The notes below the pieces were generated by a model that was given only the letters and a program-made list of their open reading frames with translations, was not told the origin of the DNA and did not search any database. The translations under genes and the position numbers were made by a program. Of a stretch of DNA of 40,017 nucleotides, positions 2,483 to 32,681 are shown piece by piece; within the stretch, counting starts at the first letter, position 1; each line of letters starts with the position of its first letter. The stretch comes from Archaeoglobi archaeon JdFR-42 (lineage in GTDB: Archaea > Halobacteriota > Archaeoglobi > Archaeoglobales > JdFR-42): positions 36,168 to 76,184 of the forward strand of contig MTND01000008.1 in NCBI GenBank assembly GCA_002010305.1, given 5' to 3'.

Positions 2483-2489
2483 ACAGATC

Positions 2490-2509: not shown

Positions 2510-2514
2510 AAAAC

Positions 2515-2522: not shown

Positions 2523-2545
2523 TTTTTTTTGTTGTTCCACCACTA

Positions 2546-4377: not shown

Positions 4378-4387
4378 GGAGGTACTT

Positions 4388-11283: not shown

Positions 11284-12135
11284 CTATATCTTTGAAATAA
11301 TCTCACCTACCTTTCTTATAGAATCCAGACTCTTTCCAGCAGGATCTCCAAATACTACCTGCTCTACTTTCAGTAAACAGATTCTTTCAATGAGCTCATC
11401 CATATTCCCACATATGCTGAAATGGCTACGCAGAAAGTTCTCATATCTTTCAAGCTCATTAAATTGTCTCCTTTCAAGAATGTTCCTGATCTCTCCGGCC
11501 ATTTTTTCTAGTTTAAAATCTCTTAGAAATGTCTTATTACCCCCTGAAAAAACTATAGCGGATGCGATGATCAAGTGGGAATCATAATGCCTTGGAAGTA
11601 CCTGACTGGGTCCATATGCAACCAGATAACAATCCTTTTTAACAAATTGCTTACCCCATTTGACATATTCGGGAAATACGTAATTTAACAGGATGCCGTC
11701 TGCATTTATTGAGGCATTCTCTATCATTTTTGGTCCTGAAGCACCGACAAAAACTCTAATTCCTGTATTTTTAAGGAAAGAAATATTCCTGTTAATCGTA
11801 TCCAGTACCTTTTTCGGAATAATACCCAGACTCTTCAGGCTTTCAAAATCCCCTGGAGCAATTCCTGCAATAAATCTATCTCCATACTCCTCACACAATA
11901 ACTCAAAAAACCCACACATCTGATTAAATGAATTAACAAATACTGAAAGAATGCCCGTACCTATCGTAATTTCTTCAGTAGACTCAGCAATAATAGGCAA
12001 TAGTGTAAATGGATGTCTAAAGGATATTTGTTCACCGACCCATATATGAGTAACACCTACCTCTTCCGCTATTTTCGCTGCCCTCTCTATATACTCTGGA
12101 GAAAGATCTCCATTAAGATTAATTCCGAACTCCAT
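11284..12135 (-). CDS. Luciferase-like (LLM) flavin/F420-dependent oxidoreductase, Mer-related
   Basis: This protein of about 283 residues follows the pattern of F420-dependent methylene-tetrahydromethanopterin reductase (Mer) and other LLM proteins: N-terminal MEFGINLNGDL, VGVTHIWVGEQ, HPFTLLPIIAESTEEITIGTGI, RFIAGIAPGDFESLKSLGI and VFVGASGPKMIENASINADGILLN. It is shorter than Mer (usually about 330) and the second half is diverged, so it is probably not the pathway Mer. The start is the ATG at 12133-12135 behind GGAGGTGTG; a longer frame to 12159 runs through the Shine-Dalgarno. It overlaps the end of the upstream LLM-like gene by 17 bp, so the two are co-transcribed. Substrate unknown. Confidence 0.72.
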   Translation of the reverse strand: MEFGINLNGDLSPEYIERAAKIAEEVGVTHIWVGEQISFRHPFTLLPIIAESTEEITIGTGILSVFVNSFNQMCGFFELLCEEYGDRFIAGIAPGDFESLKSLGIIPKKVLDTINRNISFLKNTGIRVFVGASGPKMIENASINADGILLNYVFPEYVKWGKQFVKKDCYLVAYGPSQVLPRHYDSHLIIASAIVFSGGNKTFLRDFKLEKMAGEIRNILERRQFNELERYENFLRSHFSICGNMDELIERICLLKVEQVVFGDPAGKSLDSIRKVGEIISKI

Positions 12136-13009
12136 CACACACCTCCACAAGCTTTTCATTGTTTTCAGAGAACAAAGGGAAGGGTGCGAGGATTACTTCA
12201 TCAAATCGTTCACGTAGGTCTTCTATCATGTCCGTAACATCTCCAAGCGATGGGAATAACGCCTGTACTATTCTTCTATCTAGAATATCTGATATGGAAT
12301 ACGAGCTTTTGTCCAATTCATAGTTCGACATTGTATGTAATACATCAGCAAGAGCCAGAAACTGGACAATCTTCTCAGAATAACTCATAAGTTTTGTCAT
12401 TGCCCTTCCAATTATGTCTTCATTCAGATAATTCTTATCCACAAGCACATCAATCCATAACCGCCTGGTAGTTCGAGCTGACGACTCGGTAATCTTTACT
12501 CCATGTAGCAATTTTTCGACAAACGGGATATCGTATAACACCCCATCCCAGAGATCGCTGGTAACAACTCCTGAATCGGATAATACAGATATACTGAGAT
12601 CCCCTTGATTTCTAAGTTTAACACCTTTCAAATGGAAATATTCGCTCTCAACCACCTCTTCACCACTCAACAACTGCCTTAGCAAATTCACTGCATGATT
12701 AAGTAATCCTGAGTTTTTTCTTGTTCCCCATAACACTACATTAAAACTCTCTGATATCTCTGAAAGGGTCAAAGCAGATGCTGCCAATACAGGCAGAGGT
12801 CTATAAAAAGGAGAAATTATACATCCTTTTAGATTTCCTGATCGCTTGAGAGCAGCAATAGTTGACAATGAGATGGGTTCACCTTTTAGAAGTTGTTCTC
12901 GGATCCAGACATCCATATCAGGCAGTAATTCTTTAATTGCCTTTAAAACACTGGGATCCCCAGACCAGAGCCCGAGAGAGACATCCATACTGCAGGGGTT
13001 GCTATTCAT
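12119..13009 (-). CDS. Diverged luciferase-like (LLM family) protein
   Basis: This protein of about 296 residues keeps the LLM outline but has lost much of the typical sequence. Recognisable pieces are PLPVLAASALTLSEISE with FNVVLWGTR where active members have a glycine-rich LGIGTG-type strand, and the family-typical AVNLLRQLLSGEEVVESEYFHLKGVKL. The GPKM-type segment that usually follows is replaced by SVLSDSGVVTSDLWDGVL. Start: ATG at 13007-13009 is preferred because the reading frame upstream of it lies inside the divergent gene; an alternative ATG is at 12986-12988. No Shine-Dalgarno is visible. It is the first gene of a two-gene unit with the LLM gene downstream. It may be a partner or pseudo-enzyme subunit; that is inference. 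Confidence 0.6.
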   Translation of the reverse strand: MNSNPCSMDVSLGLWSGDPSVLKAIKELLPDMDVWIREQLLKGEPISLSTIAALKRSGNLKGCIISPFYRPLPVLAASALTLSEISESFNVVLWGTRKNSGLLNHAVNLLRQLLSGEEVVESEYFHLKGVKLRNQGDLSISVLSDSGVVTSDLWDGVLYDIPFVEKLLHGVKITESSARTTRRLWIDVLVDKNYLNEDIIGRAMTKLMSYSEKIVQFLALADVLHTMSNYELDKSSYSISDILDRRIVQALFPSLGDVTDMIEDLRERFDEVILAPFPLFSENNEKLVEVCDGVRN

Positions 13010-16480: not shown

Positions 16481-17338
16481 ATGGCAAGTACTGATATTAA
16501 GTTGATTCGGGGGAATCTAGCTGGTATTAAAGTGGGAGATGGAGAACCAGTTCGTATTGCTGGTGTTATCAACGTTAGTCCTGAATCCTTTTACAAAGGC
16601 TCTGTGGTATCCAAAGAAAATGAAATAATACAGCAAGCAGAGAGAATGGTAGCTGATGGAGCAGATATGCTGGATGTTGGGGGAATGTCCACAGCACCCT
16701 ACAAAGAAACGAGAATTTCCGAGAAAGAGGAGGCAGAGAGGGTAACTGCAGCTATTCGAGCTATAAAAGAAGTTGTTGACGTCCCGGTAAGTATAGATAC
16801 TCAGCGAGCCTATCCTGCGGAACAGGGATTAAAAGCAGGAGCGGATCTTATCAACGACGTGAGTGGATTTAAAATCGATCCAGACCTCCCAAAAATCGTT
16901 TCTGATTGGAGTGTGCCTGCCATACTCATGGCATGGGAAACAGAAAACAGAGACGGTTCCCCTATGGAGAGAGTTAAAAAGGCTCTTGAGGAGAGTCTTC
17001 AAATAGCCGAAAAATTTGAAATTAACGATGTGGCGATAGATCCTGGAATTGGATTTTTTCGAGAAAAGGGAATTCCTTGGTATAAATGGGATGCTTTGAT
17101 TTTAAAAAATCTGACAGATCTCAGAGAGCTGGAAAAACCAGTTTATGTGGGAGTATCCAGAAAATCATTTATTGGAAAAATTTTAGGTAAAGATAGACCA
17201 GAAGACAGATTAATTGGTTCTCTGGCTGCTACTGTTGTAGCTGTGATTAACGGAGCGCATTTAATCAGGACTCACGATGTTGCAGAAACCCTCGAAGCTG
17301 TTAGAATAGCACAATTCATAAAAGATATAGAGTCCTAA
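16481..17338 (+). CDS. Dihydropteroate synthase-like enzyme (FolP family)
   Basis: This 285-residue TIM-barrel protein carries pterin-binding-enzyme motifs in order: GVINVSPESFYKGS, ADMLDVGGMSTAP, VPVSIDTQRA, ADLINDVSGF, VAIDPGIGFF and VYVGVSRKSFIGKIL. In bacteria the family condenses dihydropterin pyrophosphate with p-aminobenzoate; in methanopterin-using archaea related enzymes are thought to act on the ribosylated aminobenzoate precursor. Given a MtrH in the window, a role in tetrahydromethanopterin synthesis is a reasonable inference. The usual bacterial sulfonamide-loop sequence is altered (PYKETRISEKEE). It follows the NYN gene by 42 bp and closes the plus-strand run. Confidence 0.8.
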   Translation: MASTDIKLIRGNLAGIKVGDGEPVRIAGVINVSPESFYKGSVVSKENEIIQQAERMVADGADMLDVGGMSTAPYKETRISEKEEAERVTAAIRAIKEVVDVPVSIDTQRAYPAEQGLKAGADLINDVSGFKIDPDLPKIVSDWSVPAILMAWETENRDGSPMERVKKALEESLQIAEKFEINDVAIDPGIGFFREKGIPWYKWDALILKNLTDLRELEKPVYVGVSRKSFIGKILGKDRPEDRLIGSLAATVVAVINGAHLIRTHDVAETLEAVRIAQFIKDIES

Positions 17339-17437: not shown

Positions 17438-18328
17438 TTATTTTTGTAGAATTCCAGCTTTTTCAAGCTCAATTTTAATTTTCTCTTTTTCCCTATAAGT
17501 CAAAAGCTCAATAGGCATTCTGGAGTATCCACCTGGGAAACCCAATAACCTGAGAGAATATTTAAGACCTGTAGGAAATGTTCCCGTAAAAATAGCCCTC
17601 GCTATACAGTTGATTCGACGCTGATAATTCGCAACCCTTTCCCATTCCTTCCTTTCTGCTGCTTTAAACATTTTTAAGCAGAGTTCTGGCGCAATAACAG
17701 CGCTTGCCACCATAATTCCCTTTGCTCCTAAATGCAAAGCATAACTGATCAAGGGGTCCCATCCACAAAACACAGTGAAATTATCTGAAGAGACTTCTAT
17801 AAACTCCGAAAGCAATAATGGATCTCCCGAACTATCTTTTATCCCACAAATATAACTCTCCTTTGAAATTTTATGAACAATATCTGAATTCAAAGCATTT
17901 CCAGTGAAACCTGGGATATTATATACTATTACAGGCATCTCAACTCTTTCAGCTACAGAGGTAAAATGACTAATAATTCCCTCAGCACTAAACCGGTAAT
18001 AATAAGGAGCTACAACTAAAGCTGCATCAACTCCTGCATCTCTTGCATATTCTGTAAGTTCTATTGTAGTTTTTGTCGATGGTGTGCCAGTATTCACAAC
18101 AATCTGCAATCGTTTTCTGGTTCCTATAACAACATCAATCACTTCTCTCTTCTCTTCCTCTGTTAACATGACAAATTCTCCAGAAGTCCCAAGGATGAGA
18201 AGCCCATCTATACCAGCTTTTTCATAACGTCTAATCAAAGTTTTTAAGGCGTTTTCATCTAACTCACCAGATTCAGTGAAAGGGGTTGGAATTGGAGCAA
18301 ATACACCAGATATACCCTCACTTTCCAT
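17438..18328 (-). CDS. DHDPS/NAL-family class I aldolase or lyase, not a typical DapA
   Basis: This 296-residue TIM barrel belongs to the dihydrodipicolinate synthase superfamily, with the Schiff-base lysine in CGIKDSSGD (Lys164), the catalytic tyrosine in YNIPGFTG (Tyr136) and the GTSGEF pyruvate-binding loop (47-52). True DapA has an arginine after the YNxP motif to bind aspartate semialdehyde; here that position is Phe141, which argues against lysine synthesis and for a pyruvate-releasing or pyruvate-condensing aldolase on another substrate. It lies last in the methyl-transfer cluster, 75 bp after mtrH, on the same strand. A role in processing the demethylated carbon skeleton is possible but not shown. 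Confidence 0.78.
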   Translation of the reverse strand: MESEGISGVFAPIPTPFTESGELDENALKTLIRRYEKAGIDGLLILGTSGEFVMLTEEEKREVIDVVIGTRKRLQIVVNTGTPSTKTTIELTEYARDAGVDAALVVAPYYYRFSAEGIISHFTSVAERVEMPVIVYNIPGFTGNALNSDIVHKISKESYICGIKDSSGDPLLLSEFIEVSSDNFTVFCGWDPLISYALHLGAKGIMVASAVIAPELCLKMFKAAERKEWERVANYQRRINCIARAIFTGTFPTGLKYSLRLLGFPGGYSRMPIELLTYREKEKIKIELEKAGILQK

Positions 18329-18403
18329 GATATAAACCTCCGAGACTCCTTATGTCTGTTTTTTAGCTTTCTTCTATTAACTACAAACTCTCTTCCAGAT
18401 ACC

Positions 18404-19315
18404 TTAGGGAGTATACATAAATAATTTAACTAAAGGATGAGTATCCCCAAGTAAGACTCCTTCTAACTTTAGAGTATAACCCAAGAAAGCATCAAACAAA
18501 CCAGCAACATAATATACCTGTTCTGCCCACTCAATTGGCCCATACATTATAAAATCAGCTCCTCCTGCTGGCACGGGAAATAGAATACCACAAGTTTTGC
18601 AGTACTCAAATACACTCTTATCAATATTCTCCTTTTTTCTCCATAGTTCAACAAAGTTGGCAGACCCGATCCCAGAAGGATAGCCATAACGATTTTTTAT
18701 CTCATAAATGGCCTTTGAACCGGGTCCCAAATCAGGGGCGTCGATCATAGAAGCATCTACAAGTATACTATCAACTCCTACTGACTTGACTTTTTCTATC
18801 AACGTAGAGAGTTGCTCTAGTCTCCCTTCAACTGTTGGGTCATATGGATTGGTTGCTGCCACCACTACAGCACCCAGATCTGAGTCCCTGATTGCATCCA
18901 ATTCTTCAGGCTTACTCCTGTAGTTAATGGAGTTGTACACTGCCATAGTAGAAGCTCCGATCTCAGAAGAATGTTTGATCCCCTCTATTAATGTCTGAGA
19001 ATCAGAACTGTCAATAAAAAAAGGCATATCAGACACCTCTAACACGAAATCAATATACCGCTTTATCGCTTCTGGCGTTCCCCCAAATATATCTACTATC
19101 GTTGGATTTCCAGTCCTATCACTTAACTCCAAAAGCCTATTGATCCTATCTTCAGCTTTGTCTAGATCGAATTTTCCAGTTCTCCAATCTTCAACAATAC
19201 CATGACCCTCATAGAAAATAGTGCCTACTAACACTGTAGGATTCTTACCTGGAACTCCTCCAAAAGTTATCTTTCCTATTTTAACCTCCATCTGTGATGC
19301 CTCAAACTGAAACAT
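18404..19315 (-). CDS. mtrH: MtrH-family methyltransferase (methyl-corrinoid : tetrahydromethanopterin), stand-alone
   Basis: This 303-residue protein matches MtrH, the subunit that moves a methyl group between a corrinoid and tetrahydromethanopterin: N-terminal MFQFEASQMEVKIGKI then GGVPGKNPTVLVGTIFYEGH, PTIVDIFGGTPEAI, PFFIDSSDSQTLIEGI, NPYDPTVEGR and GYPSGIGSANFVELW. No other Mtr subunits (A-G) are nearby, so it is not part of the sodium-pumping Mtr complex. With the corrinoid protein and UroD-type methyltransferase upstream, it probably transfers the substrate-derived methyl group to H4MPT, as MtoA/OdmA-type proteins do in O-demethylating systems. Shine-Dalgarno TAGGAGGTGAG precedes the ATG; the gap to the upstream gene is 27 bp. 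Confidence 0.88.
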   Translation of the reverse strand: MFQFEASQMEVKIGKITFGGVPGKNPTVLVGTIFYEGHGIVEDWRTGKFDLDKAEDRINRLLELSDRTGNPTIVDIFGGTPEAIKRYIDFVLEVSDMPFFIDSSDSQTLIEGIKHSSEIGASTMAVYNSINYRSKPEELDAIRDSDLGAVVVAATNPYDPTVEGRLEQLSTLIEKVKSVGVDSILVDASMIDAPDLGPGSKAIYEIKNRYGYPSGIGSANFVELWRKKENIDKSVFEYCKTCGILFPVPAGGADFIMYGPIEWAEQVYYVAGLFDAFLGYTLKLEGVLLGDTHPLVKLFMYTP

Positions 19316-19342
19316 CTCTCACCTCCTATATAAAATCCAGAA

Positions 19343-20059
19343 TTAAGGATAGTCGAAACTCTCTCCTGGTTTTAACGCTGCCAGTTTTATTCCCGGTACT
19401 CTTTCTTTTATCATTAACTCGAAATCAGAGAGATTCTGTCTCATCTCAGGGTATGTCCCATGATGAATCGGTAACACCACCTCCGGGCGTATCCACTGAA
19501 CTGCGATAGTAGCCAGCTTTGGGCCCATGTTGTACCGACCATCAATGGGTAAAATTGCTATTTGAGGATTGTAAAGATCTCCTATTAGCCTCATATCGCT
19601 AAAAAGACCAGTATCTCCAGCAAAGAAGATCCTAACTCCCTCTTCCAGCTCGATGACATAGCTACATGAACCACTAGCGGCAATCAGCTTGTTTTCTTCC
19701 CACAGATTTGATGTGTGGTTAGAGTAAGTCATATGGATAGTTGCAGAACCTATAGTAACTGAACCACCAATATCCAGAGGGTAGGAGGCTTCATCGTACT
19801 TTAATCCTTTTTTATCTGCATAAAACCCTATTTCAGGGGAGCATATCAGTTTTGCACCCGTTAATTTGACTATCTCTAGAGCATCCCCTATATGATCGGG
19901 ATGTCCGTGAGTTACACATACCACATCCGCCTTTTTTACATCCTCTAACTTGATCGGACATACAGGATTACCAGTAATCCAAGGGTCAAAAAAAATGTGT
20001 TCATCAACTGCTGTTATTACTTCAACTGCAGGATGTCCAAGCCATCGTATCCTGGCCAT
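19343..20059 (-). CDS. MBL-fold metal-dependent hydrolase (UPF0173-like)
   Basis: This 238-residue protein has the metallo-beta-lactamase metal site: THGHPDH (His51, His53, Asp55, His56), a histidine in YSNHTSN, AGDTGLFSD (Asp) and PIHHGTYPE. The IRWLGHPAVEV start and SCSYVIELEEGVRIFFAGD segment fit the UPF0173 group of small cytoplasmic hydrolases of unknown substrate. Its ATG overlaps the TAA of the UroD-family gene (TAATG), so it is translationally coupled to the methyltransferase. It could hydrolyse an ester or lactone of the imported substrate, or act on a by-product; both are guesses from context. Confidence 0.82.
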   Translation of the reverse strand: MARIRWLGHPAVEVITAVDEHIFFDPWITGNPVCPIKLEDVKKADVVCVTHGHPDHIGDALEIVKLTGAKLICSPEIGFYADKKGLKYDEASYPLDIGGSVTIGSATIHMTYSNHTSNLWEENKLIAASGSCSYVIELEEGVRIFFAGDTGLFSDMRLIGDLYNPQIAILPIDGRYNMGPKLATIAVQWIRPEVVLPIHHGTYPEMRQNLSDFELMIKERVPGIKLAALKPGESFDYP

Positions 20060-21111
20060 TAAACTTCCTCCTGCTTTAGAGGATACCTCCCGAATTTTTC
20101 TGCTGCTTGAACCATAGCTTTAATGTTTTCTGGCGGAGTCTCTAAAGCCACATCACATCCAGATCCCAAAATCAGCCCACTACCAGAACCGGCAATCTGG
20201 ATGACCCGCTTACATTCTTCTTCTACATCTTTTGGTGTTCCGTAGAGTAAAACTCCTGCAGGGTTAAGATTTCCCCTTACTGCAAGACCGGATTTTTCTT
20301 TGGCCTCCTTCATATCAACCATATAGTCTACATCTATGGCTGTAGCTCCGGTGCTCTTAAAATAACCAAGTATGGGTTGAATTCTTCCGCATATATGAAC
20401 TAGTGTAGCTTCAGCACCATAATCTCTCAGCTTTTTGACCAGTTTTTTCTGATATGGAACGATCAGATCTTTATAATGTTTGGGTGAAATGAAGTTAGGA
20501 GAGCATAACGCTTCACCCATTGGAACCATATTGGCTCCAGCGTCGATCAGGGCTCTACCGTATTCAAACCCCACTTCAGTGGTAAACTCCAGCAGTTCTT
20601 TTATGAAATCAGGCCGATCATAGATATCGAACATCAGTTGCTCTACACCTCTGGTCTGACTTGCACAATTCCATGGCCCCATAATCCAACTTGCTATGTA
20701 TACTCTGTTCCCAATCTCTTTTGAGCAAATCTCTGTAGCCTTAACTACCACTGGCATTCTTCCATCCCTCAGAGGATCTGGTACATCGAGCTTGTACAGA
20801 TCCTCAGGCTCTTTAATTGCTGGTTTTTTAACATATGCAGTTGCATTTTCTGGCTGTACTGTCACACTGCCCAGAGCTTCTCCTTCTATTACAACATCGA
20901 CTCCTGGATGTACTCCATCATATCCGAATTCTTTCCACGCAGTAATTAAAGCTCTTGCCATCTTTTCTCCATCTGAAGCAAACTCTTTAACCTTCATTCC
21001 ACCAATTTTAGAACTAGCGAAATGAATGAGTGGAAATACAGGAACTCTATCTGGCTCTTCAAAATTCAATGCCGCTTGCACCCTCTCAAGGGAGGTCATA
21101 TCCTCAGGCAT
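20059..21111 (-). CDS. UroD/MtaA-family zinc methyltransferase, candidate substrate:corrinoid methyltransferase
   Basis: This 350-residue protein has the uroporphyrinogen decarboxylase fold but the zinc site of methyltransferases such as MtaA/MtbA: HxC in VHICGRI (His239, Cys241) and a distant Cys in LGSGCDVALETP (Cys319). True UroD lacks these and uses an N-terminal arginine-rich site not seen here. It sits between a corrinoid protein and MtrH, so it likely transfers a methyl group from a methylated substrate to the corrinoid, like MtvB/MtoB-type O-demethylases; the reverse direction (methyl to a thiol such as CoM) is the alternative. Its ATG overlaps the corrinoid-protein gene by 8 bp, with GGGGGT as Shine-Dalgarno. 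Confidence 0.85.
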   Translation of the reverse strand: MPEDMTSLERVQAALNFEEPDRVPVFPLIHFASSKIGGMKVKEFASDGEKMARALITAWKEFGYDGVHPGVDVVIEGEALGSVTVQPENATAYVKKPAIKEPEDLYKLDVPDPLRDGRMPVVVKATEICSKEIGNRVYIASWIMGPWNCASQTRGVEQLMFDIYDRPDFIKELLEFTTEVGFEYGRALIDAGANMVPMGEALCSPNFISPKHYKDLIVPYQKKLVKKLRDYGAEATLVHICGRIQPILGYFKSTGATAIDVDYMVDMKEAKEKSGLAVRGNLNPAGVLLYGTPKDVEEECKRVIQIAGSGSGLILGSGCDVALETPPENIKAMVQAAEKFGRYPLKQEEV

Positions 21112-21763
21112 TTCTTTTACCCCCTACTTTTAATAACCCTTCAACCAATTTCAATGCTTCAGAAGCGTTGGGAGCATAACCATCAGCACCGATTTTCTCT
21201 GCAAACTCCTGAGTTATGGGTGCTCCTCCTACAATTATTTTCACATTCTTTCTCACACCTTCATTTTCTAGAGTTTGAATAACTTTTTCTGTTTCTGGCA
21301 TAGTAAAAGTGAGAAGGGCAGACATGGCGAGAATATCTGGCTTTTCTCTCTTTACAGCATCCAAGAACTGATGCTCTGATACATCTTCACCCAAGTCAAT
21401 TACTTCCAGACCCCCTATTTCAAAGAAGGTCTTTACGAGAGTTTTTCCGATGTCATGAATATCACCTTTAACTGTGCCTATAACCACCCTTCCTGTGACT
21501 TCCCTTTTTATGGTTACCTTTGGTAACAGGATTTCCAATGCCTCTTTCATAGCTCGAGCACTAAGCAGCATTTCCGGGACAAAATACTCGAATCTTTCAA
21601 ATTTTTCTCCCACTTCTCGCATACCTTCTGTGATTGCTTCAATAGCCTTTTCTGGTGTAATTCCAACATCTAACGCTCTTTTTGCCAGCTCTTTTAATTT
21701 GAATCTATCCCCCTTTATAACTGTCTGGGTAAGATTATCTAATAGCTCTTTTTCTTCTTCCAT
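21104..21763 (-). CDS. Corrinoid (methyl carrier) protein, MtbC/MtoC-like
   Basis: This protein of about 219 residues has an N-terminal helical cap (B12-binding_2; LAKRALDVGITPEKAIEAITEGMREVG) and a C-terminal cobalamin domain with the DxHxxG motif GDIHDIGK (Asp101, His103, Gly106), where the histidine is the lower cobalt ligand. MSALLTFTM and VGGAPIT are the other nucleotide-loop contacts. It shuttles methyl groups between the UroD-type methyltransferase and MtrH. ATG 21763 is preferred over 21778, because AAGGGGAG then lies at normal distance. The gap from the MFS gene is 39 bp and the end overlaps the methyltransferase gene. Confidence 0.9.
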   Translation of the reverse strand: MEEEKELLDNLTQTVIKGDRFKLKELAKRALDVGITPEKAIEAITEGMREVGEKFERFEYFVPEMLLSARAMKEALEILLPKVTIKREVTGRVVIGTVKGDIHDIGKTLVKTFFEIGGLEVIDLGEDVSEHQFLDAVKREKPDILAMSALLTFTMPETEKVIQTLENEGVRKNVKIIVGGAPITQEFAEKIGADGYAPNASEALKLVEGLLKVGGKRNA

Positions 21764-21802
21764 ATACTCCCCTTCCATTTTTGAAATTTTATTGTGAGCG
21801 AA

Positions 21803-23143
21803 CTATCGAGCGATTTCTTCTAGTTCAGTACCAGGCTTCACACGTTTTGCAAGCAAGACGGTTACTGTCCATATAAACGCGGGAATGGCCCCAATATATA
21901 CCCAAGCTTGAATTCCGCCTACGGCCTCAGTAAGAAGGCCAAACAATCCTGTTCCTACTATAGCTCCTACAGCCATGGCTGCCAGAATTATGCTCAAGAT
22001 GGTTCCTCGAGCTCTTGTTGGAGCACTCTCAGTCCAGAAAGTCATTCCTGCACCCCAAACGCATGCTCCATTTCCAACAAACGCACCAATCCATAATAGT
22101 GTCATTGGCCAAAAACTCTCTGCGACTGTCATTCCTATGACTGAGAGCCCTGAAAGTATGCCTCCAGCGGCTATCATTTCCCTGCGTCCTACAATATCTC
22201 CCAGAAATCCACAAAACACATAAAATACGTAGATTACTGCACTACCTAGCAAAACAAGGGTAACAGCGTCTTGAAAAGACCAGTTTTTGAATTCACTAAG
22301 CCAGTAAACGACAAAACCATCAATCACAGGCCAGTTCACCGAGTTCAAAAACACCGTGAAAATGCCTACAAGGACTAAACGCCGGGTATCTATTCCAAAT
22401 GCTTGCTTATATGTAAACTTTTCCAGTTCTTCAGCTTTAACAAGCCGAGCATATTTCTTTTTTAGATTTTCAGCTAGCTCTACTTCCCCTCGTCTGATAG
22501 CATCTCTAATTTCCTTAACCTTCTCGAATCTATCAGGCTCTTTAACCCACTTTCGAGCTACGATAACCATAACTAATGGGATAAGACCCAGTAAAAAGAC
22601 CCATCGCCAACCTAGTATTGGAACAAAGGGTAGAGCTACTCCAGACGCCAGGAAGTACCCTAGAGGATATCCGCCCTGAACAAAACCGTATAAAGTTCCC
22701 CTCCACTTAGCAGGAAACTCTTCTATGGTTAGTGAAGGTCCAACAGCCTGTTCAACCTCGCCTGTTCCAGAAGCAACCCCCCTAACAAAAGCAAACTGCC
22801 AGAAACTCTGAACAAAACCAGTAAAAGCAGTAAACACAGCAGTTAATGTAAGGGTGACCATATACATAAACCTTCGTCCAAAATAATCAATCATTGGTCC
22901 CATAGATAGCAATGCTATAAGCCACGCAATATAGAGAATCATCCCATAGATCCCTACTTCCTTAGGGCCCATGTTAAGATCCTCAGTAATCAACGGCAAC
23001 ATGACTGTGGAGAGATTCATGTCATATGAGACTAACGCCCAACCTGCTAAACCAACTATAATCAAAAAAATCTGATACCTCCACGATCTCAACTCAATAA
23101 TTTCTTCAGAAGCCGTATCCCCCCTTTCAGGTTTATCCGACAT
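21803..23143 (-). CDS. MFS transporter (aromatic acid / metabolite:H+ symporter-like)
   Basis: This protein of about 446 residues has twelve hydrophobic segments and MFS loop motifs in both halves (DYFGRRFMYMV; DIVGRREMIAAGG), plus the helix-4/5 ARGVASGTGEVEQAVGPSLTIEEFPAKWRG stretch read as separate motifs (GVASGTGEVEQ and EEFPAKWRGTLYG), which resembles sugar, shikimate or aromatic-acid symporters. The N-terminus (~25 residues) and the central loop (~60 residues, highly charged) are cytoplasmic. It is the first gene of the methyl-transfer cluster and probably imports the methylated substrate. Start ATG 23143 has GGAGGAGG at proper spacing; the longer frame from 23161 begins at the Shine-Dalgarno. 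Substrate is inferred only. Confidence 0.82.
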   Translation of the reverse strand: MSDKPERGDTASEEIIELRSWRYQIFLIIVGLAGWALVSYDMNLSTVMLPLITEDLNMGPKEVGIYGMILYIAWLIALLSMGPMIDYFGRRFMYMVTLTLTAVFTAFTGFVQSFWQFAFVRGVASGTGEVEQAVGPSLTIEEFPAKWRGTLYGFVQGGYPLGYFLASGVALPFVPILGWRWVFLLGLIPLVMVIVARKWVKEPDRFEKVKEIRDAIRRGEVELAENLKKKYARLVKAEELEKFTYKQAFGIDTRRLVLVGIFTVFLNSVNWPVIDGFVVYWLSEFKNWSFQDAVTLVLLGSAVIYVFYVFCGFLGDIVGRREMIAAGGILSGLSVIGMTVAESFWPMTLLWIGAFVGNGACVWGAGMTFWTESAPTRARGTILSIILAAMAVGAIVGTGLFGLLTEAVGGIQAWVYIGAIPAFIWTVTVLLAKRVKPGTELEEIAR

Positions 23144-23161
23144 ATACCAAACCTCCTCCAT

Positions 23162-23468
23162 ATTCTACTTAAATGCAAGGGAGATGATCCGTGAACATAC
23201 TGTGTAAAACTCTTTTAGTACTACAATCGATTTGGTTTCCAGCCACATCTTTATCCCCCTTGGGTTTCACAATTTGAAACCTGTTTTCACATATTCAAAC
23301 ACTTTAATTATCTACGTCTATATATTAGTTTCGGTGCAAGAATTAGTATTTTTATATATTAGTTATATGAAAATACTCTAAGAATTTGCTATAAATTATT
23401 CTTAGGGGTGGTGAGACCAGCTATTTAAAAATGCTTCAAAAAGATACTTTTACCTTTCTAACAAAGAT
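23162..23468 (-). promoter_or_regulatory. Intergenic regulatory region between iclR-type gene and MFS operon
   Basis: No gene is seen in these 307 bp. The stretch holds the candidate operator at 23263-23281, a TATA-like GATAAAG (minus strand, near 23248-23254) about 10 bp downstream of it, and very AT-rich sequence at 23330-23400. A long leader of several tens of bases before the MFS start is implied. Confidence 0.5.
23263..23281 (-). promoter_or_regulatory. Candidate IclR operator, site 1 (MFS/methyltransferase operon)
   Basis: GGTTTCA-CAATT-TGAAACC is a perfect 7-bp inverted repeat with a 5-nt spacer, about 120 bp before the MFS gene. Its core TCACAATTTGAAAC recurs with changes near iclR and the tautomerase gene. 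Confidence 0.5.
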
Positions 23469-24263
23469 TCAACCTGTGTATCCCAAACGTTGAGATATTC
23501 TCTTTGCTGTTTCGGTAACCATTTTAATAAAAATGGGCATATCTTTCAATCTCAACCTAGTCGCAGGACCCGCTATACTTATTGAGGCTATGATGACACC
23601 CCTATCATCAAAAATAGGTGCTGAGACGCACCGTAACCCTTCTTCCAACTCCTGATCATCAATGGCATATCCCTGAGAGCGTATCTGTCTGATCTCCTCT
23701 TCAAGTTTTATCGGATCAGTAATAGTATTCTCAGTAAATCTCTCTAGTTTCATATCCTGTATTATCTGCTTGGAACGCTCTTCTGGCAGAAAAGCGAGAA
23801 TTACCTTACCTAAAGCTGTACAATGCATAGGACATGTCTCACCTTCATTGTAGCTCATACTCATGGCTCTATTGGAGCGTTCTTTATGAACATAAATCAC
23901 ATTGCTACCCCTTATTATGGCTAAGAAAACGGTCTCTCCAGATTTCTCTGCCAATTCTTTGAGATGAGGTGCAGCAATCTTTTTTAGATCCATCTGACTC
24001 TCTACAACTTTTCCGAGCTGAAAAAGCCTGATACCCAGTCTGTATACGAATGAGTTCGTATCTTGTTCGACAAAACCCACTGATTTCAGCGTTGAGAGGT
24101 ATCTTGACACCGTGCCTTTAGGAAGATTAAGCATACTTGCGATTTCACTAATGCTCAATTCCGGTTGCTGCACACTAAAACACTCAAGGATTTCAGCAGC
24201 TCTCTTTATGGATTTTATTTCAAAATTTCTACTATCTACTTTCTGGGTCGCTTCATCTATCAT
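23469..24263 (-). CDS. IclR-family transcriptional regulator
   Basis: This 264-residue protein has an N-terminal winged helix (IKSIKRAAEILECFS, then LSISEIASMLNLPKGTVSRYLSTL as the HTH, about residues 18-75) and a C-terminal IclR effector domain (ETVFLAIIRGSNVIYVHKE; CPMHCTALGKVILAFLP; IDDQELEEGLRCVSAPIFD; ISIAGPATRL). IclR proteins sense small molecules, often aromatic acids or sugar metabolites, as dimers or tetramers. Flanking genes and shared motifs suggest it controls the MFS/methyltransferase operon and the tautomerase gene, and itself. The start lies 23 bp after the tautomerase stop, with site 2 in between. Confidence 0.9.
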   Translation of the reverse strand: MIDEATQKVDSRNFEIKSIKRAAEILECFSVQQPELSISEIASMLNLPKGTVSRYLSTLKSVGFVEQDTNSFVYRLGIRLFQLGKVVESQMDLKKIAAPHLKELAEKSGETVFLAIIRGSNVIYVHKERSNRAMSMSYNEGETCPMHCTALGKVILAFLPEERSKQIIQDMKLERFTENTITDPIKLEEEIRQIRSQGYAIDDQELEEGLRCVSAPIFDDRGVIIASISIAGPATRLRLKDMPIFIKMVTETAKRISQRLGYTG

Positions 24264-26371: not shown

Positions 26372-27775
26372 TTACTCGCCGATCCGAATCCGATGTTCAT
26401 TGATATGTAGATAAGTTATATATGGGGACTGGAGGTTAGCATCAAATAAAATCCATGAGTCCGTCTCGCTATATCCTTTATACTGCTGTCCACTTGGTTT
26501 TTTCAATATAATCTGCTGGTCAGTCTGGACTGCAAGAACCCAGAAATAATGCTGGATAACATCTCCAAGTCCGAGAATTTTGCCCTCATTAAATTCCCCA
26601 CTAACATTATTCAGCTCTTCCTGAACATATGTATCATTATTCCATGTCCATGTGGGATCCGAAAAAGTAGAACCTCCTGTTATACTGGGAATGTTCACTC
26701 CATGCAACTGCCTTGTATATTCCATCAAAATGCTGTTGTTAAGCATATTTACTTCTAGACTATCAGAAGTATCCCATGGGATGGGTTGAGTTGAGACCCA
26801 TGACTCATATTTGTTGTTAATTTTATCTACGTAGGCTACCACAAGATAATCTACCGTATTTCCTCCTCCAGTCTTCTTAAAGGCTATCCATAGCTCATAA
26901 GATCCAGTATCAGTGTAAAGGGGCAGGTTTAAATCTTGGTTTAAGCCTTCAAAACTGAGAATAAACGTATTGATAGGAGTGGTATCACTTGAGTTAATTT
27001 TTCCAAGTGGAACTCCTTCAACCAGCTGAGAGAGAGGGATCTTAGCACCCCGATAAGTAGCAGTCATTACCAGCACGACGGTTTTATTATTATCATAAAT
27101 AGCTGTCACATTGGTAGAAGTTCTCTCTTCTGCATACTTTGCCCATGCTTTATAAAATTCACTGGTTATTTTAAACTCAACGTAACTACACGATACCGGG
27201 TTCACAAAGTTTGGATCCAGAGTGGTGTTCGGATAATACACCACAGTTCCATTTTTTACAATGGGAATTGTTACCTTTCCCATACCGGCTACCGTAAAAT
27301 TATTAACTATTTTTACTATCGGGAGAGTCAGAGTATCTATCCGGTAATGAAATTCAGGAGACGAGATCATCAGGGAATTGTCTCCATCCAGTAACCACAC
27401 TCCACCACCTTCAAATCCGATTTTCCGTTCATTTTTCTGAAATACAACTCTACCTATACTATCGTTATACACTGTAATTTTTGTATTATTTTGAAGAACT
27501 ATATTTACAATAAGTCGATTTCCACCTGTCTCAGCTTTCAATGAACCTCCATTGAGGTTGAATCTCACATACTGAGCTGGGACATCACCAAGAGAGACCT
27601 TGCTCCCTGTGTAATCCAGCATGGTCATCTCTACTTTTCCAATTTCTTCTGTAACTCTATCCGATGTACTCAAGACTTGAGGAGAGACTATCAGGAAAAT
27701 GAACACTGCTGCAGTGAGAAGGATACCAAATCCAATCACCCATCCAACTGTCTCAGACACACCTCTATCATCCAT
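26372..27775 (-). CDS. Pilin-like surface protein with large extracellular domain (DUF7289-like)
   Basis: This protein of about 467 residues starts MDDRGVSETVGWVIGFG, then one hydrophobic helix to about residue 32, the pattern of archaeal pilin-like class III N-termini (charged residues, Gly, hydrophilic position, hydrophobic helix). The rest is a long beta-rich ectodomain with many NxT/S sequons (NNT, NDS, NFT, NGT, NTT, NVT, NDT, NVS), indicating surface exposure and N-glycosylation. It resembles the DUF7289 type found in pilin-like operons of haloarchaea. ATG 27775 is chosen because GGTGAT lies 5 nt upstream. It is the last gene of the six-gene minus-strand operon and begins just past the preceding gene's end. 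Confidence 0.7.
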   Translation of the reverse strand: MDDRGVSETVGWVIGFGILLTAAVFIFLIVSPQVLSTSDRVTEEIGKVEMTMLDYTGSKVSLGDVPAQYVRFNLNGGSLKAETGGNRLIVNIVLQNNTKITVYNDSIGRVVFQKNERKIGFEGGGVWLLDGDNSLMISSPEFHYRIDTLTLPIVKIVNNFTVAGMGKVTIPIVKNGTVVYYPNTTLDPNFVNPVSCSYVEFKITSEFYKAWAKYAEERTSTNVTAIYDNNKTVVLVMTATYRGAKIPLSQLVEGVPLGKINSSDTTPINTFILSFEGLNQDLNLPLYTDTGSYELWIAFKKTGGGNTVDYLVVAYVDKINNKYESWVSTQPIPWDTSDSLEVNMLNNSILMEYTRQLHGVNIPSITGGSTFSDPTWTWNNDTYVQEELNNVSGEFNEGKILGLGDVIQHYFWVLAVQTDQQIILKKPSGQQYKGYSETDSWILFDANLQSPYITYLHINEHRIRIGE

Positions 27776-27780
27776 TACCA

Positions 27781-28476
27781 TCACCGCAAAAATTCCATTC
27801 GTACAGGGACCACTTTTACAACAAACATGTCAGATGTATTCATTTTCGCAATCACTGTTCCGTTAGCATGATCATAACTCTGAATTTGAAAACCGGCAGA
27901 CTCAAAGAAATCTTTCCATGCATCCACATGAGAGGACTGGACCACAATTGTGTTGTTGGTGGTTATGTTCTGTCTGACGTTTTCAAGATTGCTCAGCCGG
28001 ATTCTCAGAACCCCTTTGCCTGCTGTAGCCAAATCGCCATATAACTCTATTACGGCTACTATGGTGGTATTGCCTGATGTTACAATGAGAGGTGGTTCAA
28101 GAATGGTATAATTACCATTGGTTTTTCTAAATAGAGCTCCATTCTCCATGGCGAGATAGAAGGGATAATTTTCATATACCAGAGAATACATCTGAATAGT
28201 TTGGTTGCCTACAGTAATATTGCCTGTGGGTTTTATTGTATATGTCCCTTCATAGGTCTTTGTCTCTATGACTCTGGAAGGTATGCCAATGGATGTGATT
28301 TTCATCAGAGATGAACGTAGGAGTTGAAAACTCGAGACCACTTCTTGTTGATGGTTTATAACGATATAATTCTTAATAGCCGGATACGCTCCTGTGTATA
28401 TCAGACCTATGGCCAGAATTGTTATACTAAGCATCAATACTATTCCGATCTGGGTTGAAACAGCTCTTTTATTCAT
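27781..28476 (-). CDS. Pilin-like surface protein
   Basis: This 231-residue protein begins MNKRAVSTQIGIVLMLSITI, a type IV pilin-like N-terminus with basic residues followed by one hydrophobic helix (about residues 10-32), then a predicted extracellular beta-rich domain with NxT/S sequons (GNIT, NQT, NYT, NTT, NIT, NGT, NTS). Shine-Dalgarno GAGGTGAA precedes the ATG. The start overlaps the upstream pilin-like gene by 8 bp. The size fits a minor pilin or pseudopilin; no specific family name is certain. Confidence 0.68.
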   Translation of the reverse strand: MNKRAVSTQIGIVLMLSITILAIGLIYTGAYPAIKNYIVINHQQEVVSSFQLLRSSLMKITSIGIPSRVIETKTYEGTYTIKPTGNITVGNQTIQMYSLVYENYPFYLAMENGALFRKTNGNYTILEPPLIVTSGNTTIVAVIELYGDLATAGKGVLRIRLSNLENVRQNITTNNTIVVQSSHVDAWKDFFESAGFQIQSYDHANGTVIAKMNTSDMFVVKVVPVRMEFLR

Positions 28477-28915
28477 TTTTCACCTCTATCGTACTATTGT
28501 TCATCACGAGATATGCATCATAACTGGTCGCAGAAGAATTAATTACTTTTATAGAAGGGCTTATTGGTATCCTAGCCTCTCCAAACCGATACTGTATAAC
28601 CAGTTCAGGAGAAGAGTCATTGACAAGGAGAATCAGATACTGTTCCCCTCCTATTCTATCCGGTATCATGAGTTCTTTTTTTGCAAAATCTCCCTCTGAT
28701 AGACTAATTGAATATATGTCCCCTGTTATCTTGGCTCCTATGCTATATGCTTGATCGAGAGAAGACGTCTCCTGTAAAGATTTTTGCAAACCATAGAAAT
28801 TCAAAAGGACGATTGCCACTAGTATGGCAGAAATTGATAGGAGAAATAATGTTTCTACTGTTGTTGTGATCCCATTATGGTGAGAAATATTTGTAGAAGA
28901 TCTTTTGATATCCAT
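28469..28915 (-). CDS. Small pilin-like membrane protein
   Basis: This 148-residue protein has a longer N-terminal hydrophilic segment (MDIKRSSTNISHHNG) before ITTTVETLFLLSISAILVAIVLL, a single hydrophobic helix with Glu at the position where pilins use it for packing (VETLF). The C-terminal ~100 residues form a small beta domain (YLILLVNDSSPELVIQYRFG). It overlaps the 907-residue protein gene by 41 bp, unusual but with no later ATG available. It resembles DUF7266-like pilin-related proteins of archaeal surface operons. Confidence 0.62.
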   Translation of the reverse strand: MDIKRSSTNISHHNGITTTVETLFLLSISAILVAIVLLNFYGLQKSLQETSSLDQAYSIGAKITGDIYSISLSEGDFAKKELMIPDRIGGEQYLILLVNDSSPELVIQYRFGEARIPISPSIKVINSSATSYDAYLVMNNSTIEVKNE

Positions 28916-31598
28916 TATACACCACCGTGGCTTTTACATAATACACCTCATCATCTATCAGTTCAACGTTTAATGAATTCGGATATTCGAAAGTGGTCTT
29001 TGCATCTCCTTTATTGTTGGTCGTTTTAACCACTGCGTCAGAAATAGAGTTGTTGTATTCATCGAACACCTCAAAAGTAACTGAAGCACCTTCAATTTTC
29101 GTACCATTTTCCCAACTTAAACCTTTTAGCTCAGCCTTAAACTTATCCACCTTCCCATTATCATTTTCATCTTTCAGATCCTTGATTTTAAAATCCTCGA
29201 TTATGAAGTTCCCTGTTTGATTCCCTACTTCAGGAGAAAACTCCAGTATGAAAGATTGTAGTTGTCCATTATACACGACATCCGCTATCAGAAAGTAAGT
29301 TGCATTAGGGTCTAGACTGCCATTGTAGGTAGCAGATGCAAAACCATTACTGTCGGTCACATCATTTCCCGTGAAAATAAGGTTATTATCATCTACAATC
29401 TGAGCATACAATTTAAAAGTAACATTAGCTCCTTGGATCAATTGACCTGTATCTGCCATTCTGAGATTATTCAACTGAAATTCATATTCTCCAGGATTTT
29501 CAACAACTTTCAACTCAGCTTCAAATCCTGCACCCCCTCCTCCACCGATGCCATTCTGAAAAGTGACTGAAATCTGTGTCCACGCTGTATTATTGCCATC
29601 ACTGGCTATAGCTTTTAGGATGTGCTCTCCATCCATCCACTGAGTGGTATTCAAATCTAGCTCCCATAAACCAGATGTTCCGTTGTAGACCATATTTCCA
29701 ACTGGATCTCCATCCACCCCTAAAATGACTTGAGTTCCAGTTGCATTTACAAGGACTGTGTAAGTTCCTGAGATTAATCCTCCATTTGTCGGATCCACAA
29801 ACTCGGGCTCAGGAAAGACTGGATTGGAAGTACCTCCTGTTGCATATCCTGCGAGGGATGCAAGAAGGGGATTCGACACAGCAGTAATGTTGCTTAAAGT
29901 TTTTCTGAACTGAAGATCGTCATCTTCAAAATTAATGGTAAGTGAGGCTTGTAACCGGATCACAGGGACTTTTTTAACAATACTGGAAATGAAAAAGGTG
30001 TCAAATACTATCATCTCTCTTTCTGGCATAGGAATGTTCCCTTCGGCCATGCTCTGATCATGACCTCCCAGATACACTACCACCCCACTGTCAAAAGGGG
30101 CGAACACATAAGTCTGAACGAGATCATTACTGGTGTTCAGCAGTATTACCGAATCTGGGTTGTAGGCCAATCCACCTCCACCCAGTATAAAAGATGGGAC
30201 TGAACCTCCCCGTGGAGGAAGGATGTCCGTATAGGTCTGTACCAGAGACATGGCCGTAAATTTATAGGTTGTGTTTGAGATAAAAGGCCAGTCCTCCACG
30301 GTAGAGTTTAACGTTTTGCCATATTTATTTGTATCATACCTCACTCCGATGAACCCATACCACGGATGAGTGGTATCAACATTTTCTACAAGATCGTCCA
30401 TCCCATCGATATTTTTGGTATCTTTGCCTATCGCTTCACACTCAACGTGAAGAACACCTCCAAGGCTTACCCAGTTCATTATAGCCCTTGCGGTAGAGTC
30501 TGACATATAATTGCTCAGACTTTCATGAGGTATAAAGAGTATGTCCGTATTATTTAGGGAGTCGCTTTCTATTTCACTGGTATTAAGCAACGAATATTCC
30601 GAGCTGGTCAACCCAGCATCAGTGAAATAGCCCTCTATTATACCTGGGTTGCTCCCTTCTGCCGGATACACGGCAAGTCTTGGAGCTTTATATATCATCA
30701 CAGAATAGTCGTAAGAAAAGCTCTGATTCACCACAAGGAGAGTTACATTCATAGTCTGAGCTTCCTGCAATATCAGATCCTCTACTGTCATGCCAAGGGT
30801 AGGGTGGGATCTGGCAAGCTGATCCGGAAGGACGGCAATAACGCCACCTTTCAGAGACCATATCTTATTGATGTTCCCTTGTTGAAATGTTGTGTTAGGA
30901 TCATATAGTACAGAAGCAACCACCAGTACCTCATGCTTAATCGAATCCATTCCTGTAAAGTCAACAGCATTTTCTCTTGGATCCTGAATAAGGCGATACA
31001 CAATTACATCCATCCCTGAATCATCTAGAGGGGAGGAAGTTTCATTTCTGTCATTCAGAATTCGATAAAGCAACCCATAGGTTCGCATGAAGTTCAATCT
31101 ACTTGTGTTGTCTACCGAAAACTCTCTGAGCCAGTATTGGTTTTCATCCATGGGTATCAGAATAGTTCCAGCAGGAAATGTGACTTGTTCAACTCTGACT
31201 ATGTTACCTTCTGTGATGGGGTTACCATCTTCATCAGTGTATATATATGAGATGGTTATGTTCAGGGACTCGAGATCAATATCCAGAGCTTTCAAATTCC
31301 CACCGTACATTTCTTCCAGATTGCTTATTGTCGATAAAAATTCATTTTGAGCCAGTAGTAGAGCCTCTTCAGATGTAACATTCTTGGTTGAAATATAGGT
31401 ATATGCATCAATTACAGCCCGCATAGCTGCCCCTTTAATCAGATAATTGACATTTTCAACATATTTCCCTTCTGAGACCTCTTCTGTTGTGGGTAAATTC
31501 AATGTAAAAAGCATGGTATTGGCTATAATTATCAACATCACCAGCCCAATTGCAAGGAGGAAACCTGTCATTATCATCAACTGGCCCTTATCATCCAT
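28875..31598 (-). CDS. Large pilin-anchored surface protein with GATase-like and Ig-like domains
   Basis: This 907-residue protein begins MDDKGQLMIMTGFLLAIGL, a pilin-like N-terminus with one hydrophobic helix (about 8-32). Residues about 50-200 are helical to mixed; about 310-545 resemble a class I glutamine-amidotransferase-like (flavodoxin-like) fold, with TDILFIPHESL, GGVLHVECEA and VVYLGGHDQS strands but no obvious catalytic Cys-His-Glu triad. About 610-690 is an Ig-like domain (GGLISGTYTVLVNATG), and the last ~210 residues hold two related beta-sandwich repeats (TDSNGFASATYNG...YNGQLQ and TNNKGDAKTTF...YNGYQK). It is probably the main adhesin-like or shaft-tip component. Shine-Dalgarno GGAGGATG is present. 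Function inferred. Confidence 0.68.
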   Translation of the reverse strand: MDDKGQLMIMTGFLLAIGLVMLIIIANTMLFTLNLPTTEEVSEGKYVENVNYLIKGAAMRAVIDAYTYISTKNVTSEEALLLAQNEFLSTISNLEEMYGGNLKALDIDLESLNITISYIYTDEDGNPITEGNIVRVEQVTFPAGTILIPMDENQYWLREFSVDNTSRLNFMRTYGLLYRILNDRNETSSPLDDSGMDVIVYRLIQDPRENAVDFTGMDSIKHEVLVVASVLYDPNTTFQQGNINKIWSLKGGVIAVLPDQLARSHPTLGMTVEDLILQEAQTMNVTLLVVNQSFSYDYSVMIYKAPRLAVYPAEGSNPGIIEGYFTDAGLTSSEYSLLNTSEIESDSLNNTDILFIPHESLSNYMSDSTARAIMNWVSLGGVLHVECEAIGKDTKNIDGMDDLVENVDTTHPWYGFIGVRYDTNKYGKTLNSTVEDWPFISNTTYKFTAMSLVQTYTDILPPRGGSVPSFILGGGGLAYNPDSVILLNTSNDLVQTYVFAPFDSGVVVYLGGHDQSMAEGNIPMPEREMIVFDTFFISSIVKKVPVIRLQASLTINFEDDDLQFRKTLSNITAVSNPLLASLAGYATGGTSNPVFPEPEFVDPTNGGLISGTYTVLVNATGTQVILGVDGDPVGNMVYNGTSGLWELDLNTTQWMDGEHILKAIASDGNNTAWTQISVTFQNGIGGGGGAGFEAELKVVENPGEYEFQLNNLRMADTGQLIQGANVTFKLYAQIVDDNNLIFTGNDVTDSNGFASATYNGSLDPNATYFLIADVVYNGQLQSFILEFSPEVGNQTGNFIIEDFKIKDLKDENDNGKVDKFKAELKGLSWENGTKIEGASVTFEVFDEYNNSISDAVVKTTNNKGDAKTTFEYPNSLNVELIDDEVYYVKATVVYNGYQKIFYKYFSP

Positions 31599-31599
31599 A

Positions 31600-32235: not shown

Positions 32236-32681
32236 ACTCTCACCTCTACAATATATATATTGCCCGGATTGGAATAATCAACCACCAGACGTTCAACGTA
32301 ACCAAAATTACCCAGATCTCCGTAAGGTTTTCCCACTGCACCAACCACCATATAGGGATTAGAAAAGGTTTTCACAGTGATATTTACATCAAATGTTTTA
32401 CTTCCTTCAAGACTGAAGAGATTGTAGAGACTGGTTTCATTCATAGCAAGCAATTGGTTCAGTTTTGTCGTGTTAATCGCATTAGTTTTATACACTCCGT
32501 CCTGATGGAGATAGTTCAGAATATATTCTGAAATTGACTCTGCAAGGTATTGATTCTTTGACGACTCCTGAGTTACGGGAGAGATAACATTTAGAGAGAA
32601 ATAAAATATTAATGAGACTCCAAAAAGAAATAGCATAATGCCTACAATATAATCAGCAGTGGCCTGCCCACAATTCCTCAT
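32229..32681 (-). CDS. Pilin-like surface protein (DUF7287-like)
   Basis: This 150-residue protein begins MRNCGQATADYIVGIMLFLFG; GQATxDY followed by a hydrophobic helix is the pattern of DUF7287-type pilin-like proteins. The ectodomain of about 110 residues has NxT/S sequons (NTT, NET, NIT) and ends in a strand (NIYIVEVRVW). It is the first gene of the six-gene operon. Upstream (32682-32850) the sequence ACCCGT occurs twice on the minus strand, 23 nt apart, next to a TTTATA element (about 32722-32729), a candidate promoter region. Confidence 0.68.
   Translation of the reverse strand: MRNCGQATADYIVGIMLFLFGVSLIFYFSLNVISPVTQESSKNQYLAESISEYILNYLHQDGVYKTNAINTTKLNQLLAMNETSLYNLFSLEGSKTFDVNITVKTFSNPYMVVGAVGKPYGDLGNFGYVERLVVDYSNPGNIYIVEVRVW

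Follow-up and report, generated by a model that had tools for sequence, protein, structure and literature searches.

What does an archaeon do with a set of genes that places an importer, the parts of a corrinoid-dependent methyl-transfer system, a hydrolase and a lyase side by side on one strand? The question is raised by a run of six genes in a stretch of 40,017 nucleotides (the window) from contig MTND01000008.1 of Archaeoglobi archaeon JdFR-42. The run encodes a major facilitator superfamily (MFS) transporter, a corrinoid protein, a UroD-superfamily methyltransferase, a metallo-beta-lactamase (MBL)-fold hydrolase, a stand-alone MtrH and a dihydrodipicolinate synthase (DHDPS)-family lyase. 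The first-pass annotation had read it as an O-demethylation cluster of the methoxydotrophic type, akin to the Mto, Mtv and Odm systems. We found that the methyltransferase has a His-Cys-Cys (HCC) zinc site and that none of the three methyl-transfer proteins (this enzyme, MtrH and the corrinoid protein) belongs to the clade of its Mto counterpart (MtoB, MtoA and MtoC, respectively), which speaks against that reading. We give about even chances to a different one, in which the run is an inducible catabolic operon that joins the corrinoid-to-tetrahydromethanopterin (H4MPT) demethylation of an imported small molecule to the breakdown of its skeleton.

The single minus-strand run (17438-23161) consisted of six intact open reading frames, each with a strong family match, and thus bore out its earlier description. 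The intergenic gaps, from the MFS gene towards the lyase gene, were 24, -8, -1, 27 and 75 bp, a GGAGG-type ribosome-binding site stood before most of the starts, and a convergent dihydropteroate synthase gene (16481-17338, plus strand) bounded the downstream end. The tight gaps, the ribosome-binding sites and the convergent boundary gene together make the operon reading sound. The gene content and order, the catalytic motifs, the fold, the clade exclusions and the genomic activases described below were read directly from the sequence.

Zinc site and family of the methyltransferase

In the alignment, the zinc site of the window UroD-type protein was His239-Cys241-Cys319, a set shared with MtaA and with almost every MtaA-like paralog, and A. 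fulgidus MtoB had Leu-Glu-Val at the zinc-site positions. The His-Cys-Cys set is the coordination sphere of S-methyltransferases in the superfamily, while O-methyltransferases replace one or both cysteines (Kountz and Balskus, PMC10418091). The MtvB-type zinc motif, E-X14-E-X20-H, matched no sequence, A. fulgidus MtoB included, and gave no test.

The window protein scored 216 bits against TIGR01463 (cut-off 235) and was also under the MtaA and MtbA cut-offs. It scored 108 bits against MtaA (4ay7) and 32 bits against CdmB, compared with 214 bits for A. fulgidus MtoB against CdmB. The AlphaFold2 model (predicted local distance difference test score, 95) had MtaA 4ay7 as its best match, with a template modelling (TM) score of 0.89 and a root-mean-square deviation of 1.9.

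Using MtaA and CdmB as named anchors, we placed the protein in a tree that held archaeal MtoB and CdmB. Our trees consisted of archaeal sequences with long branches; bacterial MtvB/OdmB and the characterised MtpA were not among them. A 100/100 split put MtoB and CdmB, together with the MtoB-like protein of this genome, on one side and the window protein on the other, and forcing the latter in with MtoB/CdmB was rejected by the approximately unbiased test (p = 0.030; p = 0.038 without the anchors). The 16-row clade of MtaA (100/97) left it out as well, and of 32 positions that are invariant in the MtaA-like set it had many changed, with the zinc ligands all kept. From these alignments and trees, the protein is best described as an MtaA-like orphan that branches apart from the MtaA clade as well. 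The first-pass annotation had named grouping with MtaA/MtbA as the outcome that would speak against O-demethylation; we found membership in the wider MtaA-like family and not in the MtaA clade, and this outcome was therefore not reached in its literal sense.

The HCC site and the MtaA-like family (PMC10418091) are also what one would expect if the operon scavenged methylated sulfur or selenium compounds in an MtpCAP-like or type 1 mlp gene cluster-like manner, with the methyl group as waste and the demethylated sulfur or selenium compound as the goal. The parts do resemble mtpCAP-msrH, which combines a corrinoid protein, an MtaA-like protein, an MFS transporter and a regulator (PMC7374477). 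We consider this explanation unlikely, since the presence of a dedicated MtrH points to a use for the methyl group and no selenium gene was seen in the cluster. A type 1 mlp cluster is defined by at least two MtaA-like genes, a corrinoid protein, Ram/RACE and no pterin methyltransferase within 20 kb (PMC10418091). The cluster has a single MtaA-like gene, lacks an activase and includes MtrH as a pterin methyltransferase, and the assignment to this type was rejected.

MtrH, the corrinoid protein and the Mto systems

The solved relatives of the window MtrH include a methylcorrinoid:tetrahydrofolate methyltransferase (6sj8). In the tree it grouped with the MtrH proteins of two loci, L052 and L053 (support 88, within a group of 97), with which it shares 44% identity, and the MtoA set formed a separate group with 99% support in the Shimodaira-Hasegawa-like approximate likelihood-ratio test. 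Thus, in the phylogeny that had been proposed for both proteins, the UroD-type protein did not join the MtoB set, nor MtrH the MtoA set. The corrinoid protein, whose translation holds DIHDIG (the DxHxxG motif), was likewise outside the MtoC clade, the MtoC set being a separate group (97-98).

It had been noted that the window contains no MtoD-like activase. This is true of the cluster and of the whole window, in which we found no corrinoid activase, but a search of the genome found two RACo-type activases elsewhere (C13:1251-2021 and C2:143052-143819), so that activation of the corrinoid protein in trans is possible and the missing MtoD is accounted for.

The remaining case for an Mto-like aryl-ether O-demethylation, with the methyl group passing via MtrH to H4MPT and with the MBL-fold and lyase genes as accessories, lies in the parts list, which is the same as in the A. 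fulgidus mto cluster (corrinoid protein, UroD-type protein, MFS transporter, MtrH; PMC8359953). We identified that cluster by gene order at G001 C1 (L042), where corrinoid protein, MtoB, MFS transporter, MtrH and RACo-type activase follow the order of AF_0006-AF_0010. In addition, the top NCBIfam models for the window transporter were 2A0115 (aromatic acid/H+ symport) and 2A0112 (sialate), although both were far under the cut-off. Against these points stand the zinc site, the position of all three proteins outside the Mto clades and the length of the window UroD-type protein, which is about 65 residues shorter than A. fulgidus MtoB. The transporter is unlike AF_0008, with 25% identity over a short stretch only, and a direct link between the two was rejected; a search of 58 other Archaeoglobi at E <= 1e-20 found no counterpart of the window transporter. 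The genome also has a separate MtoB/MtoC-like pair of its own on C2 (L038 6555-8523). We therefore think that aryl-ether O-demethylation is improbable for the window operon, and membership in the Mto systems was rejected on the bit scores, the UroD split, the zinc site, and the MtrH and corrinoid clades. What stands of the earlier view is a corrinoid-dependent operon for import, demethylation and MtrH-type transfer to H4MPT, associated with an IclR gene. Despite the rejection of Mto membership, transfer of methyl to corrinoid and on to H4MPT is likely to be its working principle.

About 4-5 kb from the MtoB/MtoC-like pair lies an MtrH (L038 12850-13725) that fell with the MtoA side in the tree; pair and MtrH together take up about 124.5-131.7 kb of C2. 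Judged by the sequences, the L038 pair would be a better candidate than the window operon for methoxyaromatic demethylation in this organism. A UroD-type protein, a corrinoid protein and an MtrH should accordingly not be annotated as Mto without a check of the zinc site and the clades.

A soluble bypass of Mtr would put the same parts to another use. The UroD-type protein would then be a methylcorrinoid:coenzyme M methyltransferase that interconverts methyl-coenzyme M and methyl-H4MPT together with the corrinoid protein and MtrH in a host with Mcr or Acr. The two McrA genes of the genome, the HCC site and MtaA as the closest solved fold would fit such a role. It appears quite improbable all the same, because the protein lies outside the clade that holds MtaA (100/97) and differs at many of the 32 invariant positions, albeit with the zinc ligands kept, and because the importer, the MBL-fold protein, the lyase and IclR point to a substrate from outside the cell to which the operon is dedicated.

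It is very unlikely that the operon serves corrinoid methyl transfer alone and carries the MBL-fold and lyase genes as passengers with no part in it: although their arrangement was not repeated in any other genome searched, the start of the MBL gene and the stop of the UroD gene share one base (the joining that had been described before), both genes lie no more than 75 bp from their neighbours with ribosome-binding sites, and the genome has a housekeeping MBL copy in addition to this one.

Proposed pathway and its standing

The MBL-fold protein belongs to the UPF0173 family (217 bits against PRK00685; cut-off 144), and it is indeed an additional gene, as had been claimed. The genome has a housekeeping-like UPF0173 copy at C4:129797-130480, the window gene being a second, diverged copy, and the other Archaeoglobi with a UPF0173 match have one copy each. 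All metal ligands were kept (H50, H52, D54, H55, H114, D148 and H198), with a change of Tyr to His beside the last of them. The model matched 3x2z with a TM score of 0.91, the UPF0173 structures with 0.86-0.91, and 2wyl and 3bv6, which we take to be UlaG lactonases, with 0.80-0.83. From the model, a lactonase-like role is our best guess.

The lyase keeps the Schiff-base Lys and the catalytic Tyr. At the position of the substrate Arg of DapA it has Phe (YNIPGFTG compared with YNVPSRTG), an Arg that is retained in L108, L139 and the genome's own copy, L036. The identification as DapA was rejected on the loss of this Arg from the YNxPxRTG motif, and the non-DapA aldolase of the first-pass annotation was upheld, even though the score against NCBIfam dapA (215.1) was just over the cut-off (206.15). 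The best relatives in the phylum, of Methanocella type (42-44% identity), have the same Phe, and their genes overlap a gene for aldehyde:ferredoxin oxidoreductase (AOR). Since an AOR fits an aldehyde product, the change of Arg to Phe and the coupling of the relatives to AOR point to a lyase whose most likely activity, from sequence comparison, is cleavage to pyruvate plus an aldehyde.

We propose the following route. A small methylated compound would enter through the MFS transporter. The UroD-type enzyme, with its His-Cys-Cys zinc, would shift the compound's methyl group onto the corrinoid protein in its Co(I) state, and MtrH would hand it to H4MPT, from where the methyl branch of the Wood-Ljungdahl pathway would oxidise or assimilate it. 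One of the two RACo-type proteins would reactivate the corrinoid in trans. The MBL-fold enzyme would open or hydrolyse the demethylated skeleton in a lactonase-like manner, and the DHDPS-family lyase would split it to pyruvate plus aldehyde. IclR would control the operon, and the signal that it senses is probably a 2-oxo-acid-like intermediate. The steps of import, demethylation and transfer follow from what is known of the families and from the unbroken motifs; the substrate, the direction of flux, the roles of the MBL-fold enzyme and the lyase, and the regulation are what we infer.

The most likely carrier of the methyl group is sulfur, in a thioether, or a sugar-acid-like, non-aromatic compound, and not a phenol. 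The HCC zinc site points to a thioether donor, whereas the sugar-importer neighbourhood of the UroD relatives and the types of the regulator, the lyase and the MBL-fold protein point to a sugar-acid-like compound. The closest UroD relative found (L181, 42% identity) stands next to a ribose-type ATP-binding cassette (ABC) importer and a second UroD gene, with a corrinoid protein near. Another (L182, 38%) has CUT1-type sugar ABC importers and Gfo/Idh/MocA and SIS genes as neighbours; both belong to two other Thermoproteota genomes. Five relatives in Methanomethylicota (L081-L085, 35-37%) lie beside AOR/MoaD, with a corrinoid protein adjacent in L081, L082, L084 and L085. No MtrH, MBL-fold or lyase gene was found beside any of these seven. 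The scan of genome contigs for close UroD relatives returned the five Methanomethylicota genes only and was the one search to cover bacteria; the wider search covered two archaeal phyla. The nearest MtrH relatives (44%) sit beside a gene of the FAA-hydrolase family, which may be a weak second hint, by analogy, of keto-acid chemistry. A methylated sugar acid or a methylthio acid would satisfy part of each line.

Several points weigh against the catabolic operon as proposed. The methyl donors named above are candidates only. CmuA, which acts on chloromethane and belongs to the same MtaA/CmuA family, presumably also has an HCC-type site, and HCC is therefore no proof of a thioether. Oxygen chemistry, to which the sugar-transport context of the relatives points, is not easily squared with HCC. 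The UroD backbone was weak and unresolved after Thermoproteota sequences were added, with the MtoB clade still separate. Finally, no homolog of the whole operon was found among the genomes searched, so that conservation cannot confirm the MBL-fold enzyme and the lyase as members of the pathway.

A more specific proposal, which we hold tentatively and regard as somewhat unlikely, is that corrinoid-dependent demethylation of a non-aromatic methylated acid, either a thioether or a methylated sugar acid, is joined in one operon with cleavage of its skeleton, that the methyl group and the backbone are both used, and that the UroD-type protein represents a new substrate class of substrate:corrinoid methyltransferase (MT1). 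If the catabolic operon is real, an MCR-encoding Archaeoglobi lineage would have a complete path for breaking down a methylated compound, and the MtaA-like family would gain one more substrate.

Regulator, genome context and known systems

Control by IclR had been part of the first-pass annotation. The IclR gene lies on the same strand, 325 bp upstream of the MFS start at 23143 (which carries a GGAGG site), and thus outside the interval 17438-23143 that was first described; the regulation itself is our conjecture. The closest NCBIfam and PDB relatives of the protein are BhcR, PcaR and KdgR, and from its position and family we presume it to be the natural regulator of the operon. Between the IclR and MFS genes we found a perfect palindrome, GTTTCA-N5-TGAAAC, with an imperfect copy 20 bp off. 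The perfect copy occurs once in the genome, but arms of 7 or more arise in about 25% of shuffled intergenic sequences, and the pair as a candidate operator is therefore suggestive only. Table 1 shows the positions of all features.

Table 1. Positions of the operon genes and associated features in the window
Feature	Position	Strand	Basis or detail
DHDPS-family lyase, predicted class I pyruvate aldolase, not DapA	17438..18328	-	PF00701, 221 bits
Stand-alone MtrH, predicted methylcorrinoid:H4MPT methyltransferase	18404..19315	-	PF02007, 244 bits
MBL-fold hydrolase, UPF0173	19343..20059	-	PRK00685, 217 bits
UroD-superfamily MtaA-like methyltransferase, predicted substrate:corrinoid	20059..21111	-	PF01208, 251 bits
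Codon of zinc ligand Cys319	20155..20157	-	Alignment with MtaA and paralogs
Codons of zinc ligands His239 and Cys241 (HIC)	20389..20397	-	Alignment with MtaA and paralogs
Corrinoid protein, likely start about 21763	21104..21778	-	PF02310 and PF02607
MFS transporter, likely start 23143	21803..23161	-	PF07690, 143 bits
Two tandem operator-like palindromes, 20 bp apart	23264..23300	.	23264-23280 GTTTCACAATTTGAAAC; 23284-23300 imperfect
IclR-family regulator, BhcR/PcaR/KdgR-like, presumed operon regulator	23469..24263	-	PF01614, 180 bits, and PF09339

The product of the boundary gene, a dihydropteroate synthase homolog, exceeded the TIGR01496 cut-off, in an archaeon that is expected to use H4MPT. 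Farther off in the window, the translations gave a complete branched-chain-type ABC importer (1247-5850, plus strand; binding protein, two permeases and two ATPases) and a run of surface or pilin-like secreted proteins (26372-32681, minus strand), one of which matched DUF7289.

The host genome (2.149 Mb in 42 contigs) is one of two in the set searched that represent its Archaeoglobi family, and it has two divergent McrA genes and five MtrH genes. The sections of Boyd et al. (PMC6474303) drawn on here describe Ca. Polytropus marinifundus, which the features of the host genome fit, as having about 2.13 Mb, two divergent McrAs, a complete Wood-Ljungdahl pathway and five mtrH genes, each adjoining a corrinoid protein gene. 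In those sections the mtrH-corrinoid association is already noted in general, and the make-up of the window operon is not discussed. Among 58 other Archaeoglobi, including the sole family relative, we found no UroD-type protein above 37% identity and no MtrH above 44%; by these comparisons the operon is accessory. Base composition gave no signal of horizontal transfer, the GC fraction of the cluster (0.38-0.42) being like that of the window.

UroD-type matches in the genome numbered 11 in all; the MtaA-like proteins, of which the genome has many, mostly have no assigned role. UroD relatives pair with corrinoid proteins in many archaea. Several MtaA-like genes at other loci had further partners. 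One directly follows a gene for a reductive-dehalogenase-family protein (L038 10515-12782, C2; TIGR02486, 210 bits, over the cut-off). At L035 6786-9926 (C4), an MtmB-family protein (PF05369) has a corrinoid protein on one side and an MtaA-like gene on the other; its frame of 457 residues has no internal stop and apparently no amber/pyrrolysine codon. A single run at L034 754-7024 (C35) holds MtrH, an MtaA-like UroD, AOR, DUF2193 and a luciferase-like (Mer-type) protein. The MtaA-like gene is paired with a transglutaminase-like protein of about 305 residues at L033 6860-8952 (C21; PF01841 in this copy), L044 and L108, and adjoins a molybdopterin oxidoreductase at L037 4492-7543 (C21). At L189 6374-7420 (G613), a UroD relative has His-Glu-Glu in place of His-Cys-Cys, which may mark a possible oxygen-type variant, with an MtrH (11584-12546) about 4 kb off.

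Archaeal corrinoid systems as described in the papers cited here use the methyl group alone and release the remainder, and we found no paper on a corrinoid system with an aldolase or lactonase or on one for methyl sugars. Among known systems, the Mto system (MtoABCD) of A. fulgidus and Methermicoccus shengliensis shares with the window operon a corrinoid protein, a UroD-superfamily enzyme, an MtrH-type protein, an MFS transporter and methyl transfer to H4MPT (PMC8359953, PMC8630106). The window operon differs in its clades, its HCC site, the absence of an activase from the cluster and the addition of MBL-fold, lyase and IclR genes. MtpCAP-MsrH of Methanosarcina acetivorans, which serves methylmercaptopropionate, also has a corrinoid protein, an MtaA-like UroD, an MFS transporter and a regulator at one locus (PMC7374477), but its regulator is not of the IclR family, MtrH, MBL-fold and lyase genes are absent, and MtpA is described as a coenzyme M methyltransferase (PMC7374477). 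The window transporter showed weak similarity to the presumed equivalent in a similar Methanosarcina cluster (L102).

MtaA and MtbA are alike to the window methyltransferase in fold (TM score of 0.89 to 4ay7), length and HCC site, and the latter differs in its place outside the MtaA clade, the many changed family-invariant positions and its MtrH partner. Type 1 mlp clusters (Kountz and Balskus) share the MtaA-like protein with HCC and the corrinoid protein. Nearest among the UroD relatives found (35-42%) come the UroD-corrinoid pairs of Methanomethylicota and the UroD genes of L181 and L182, which have AOR/MoaD or sugar ABC importers as partners instead.

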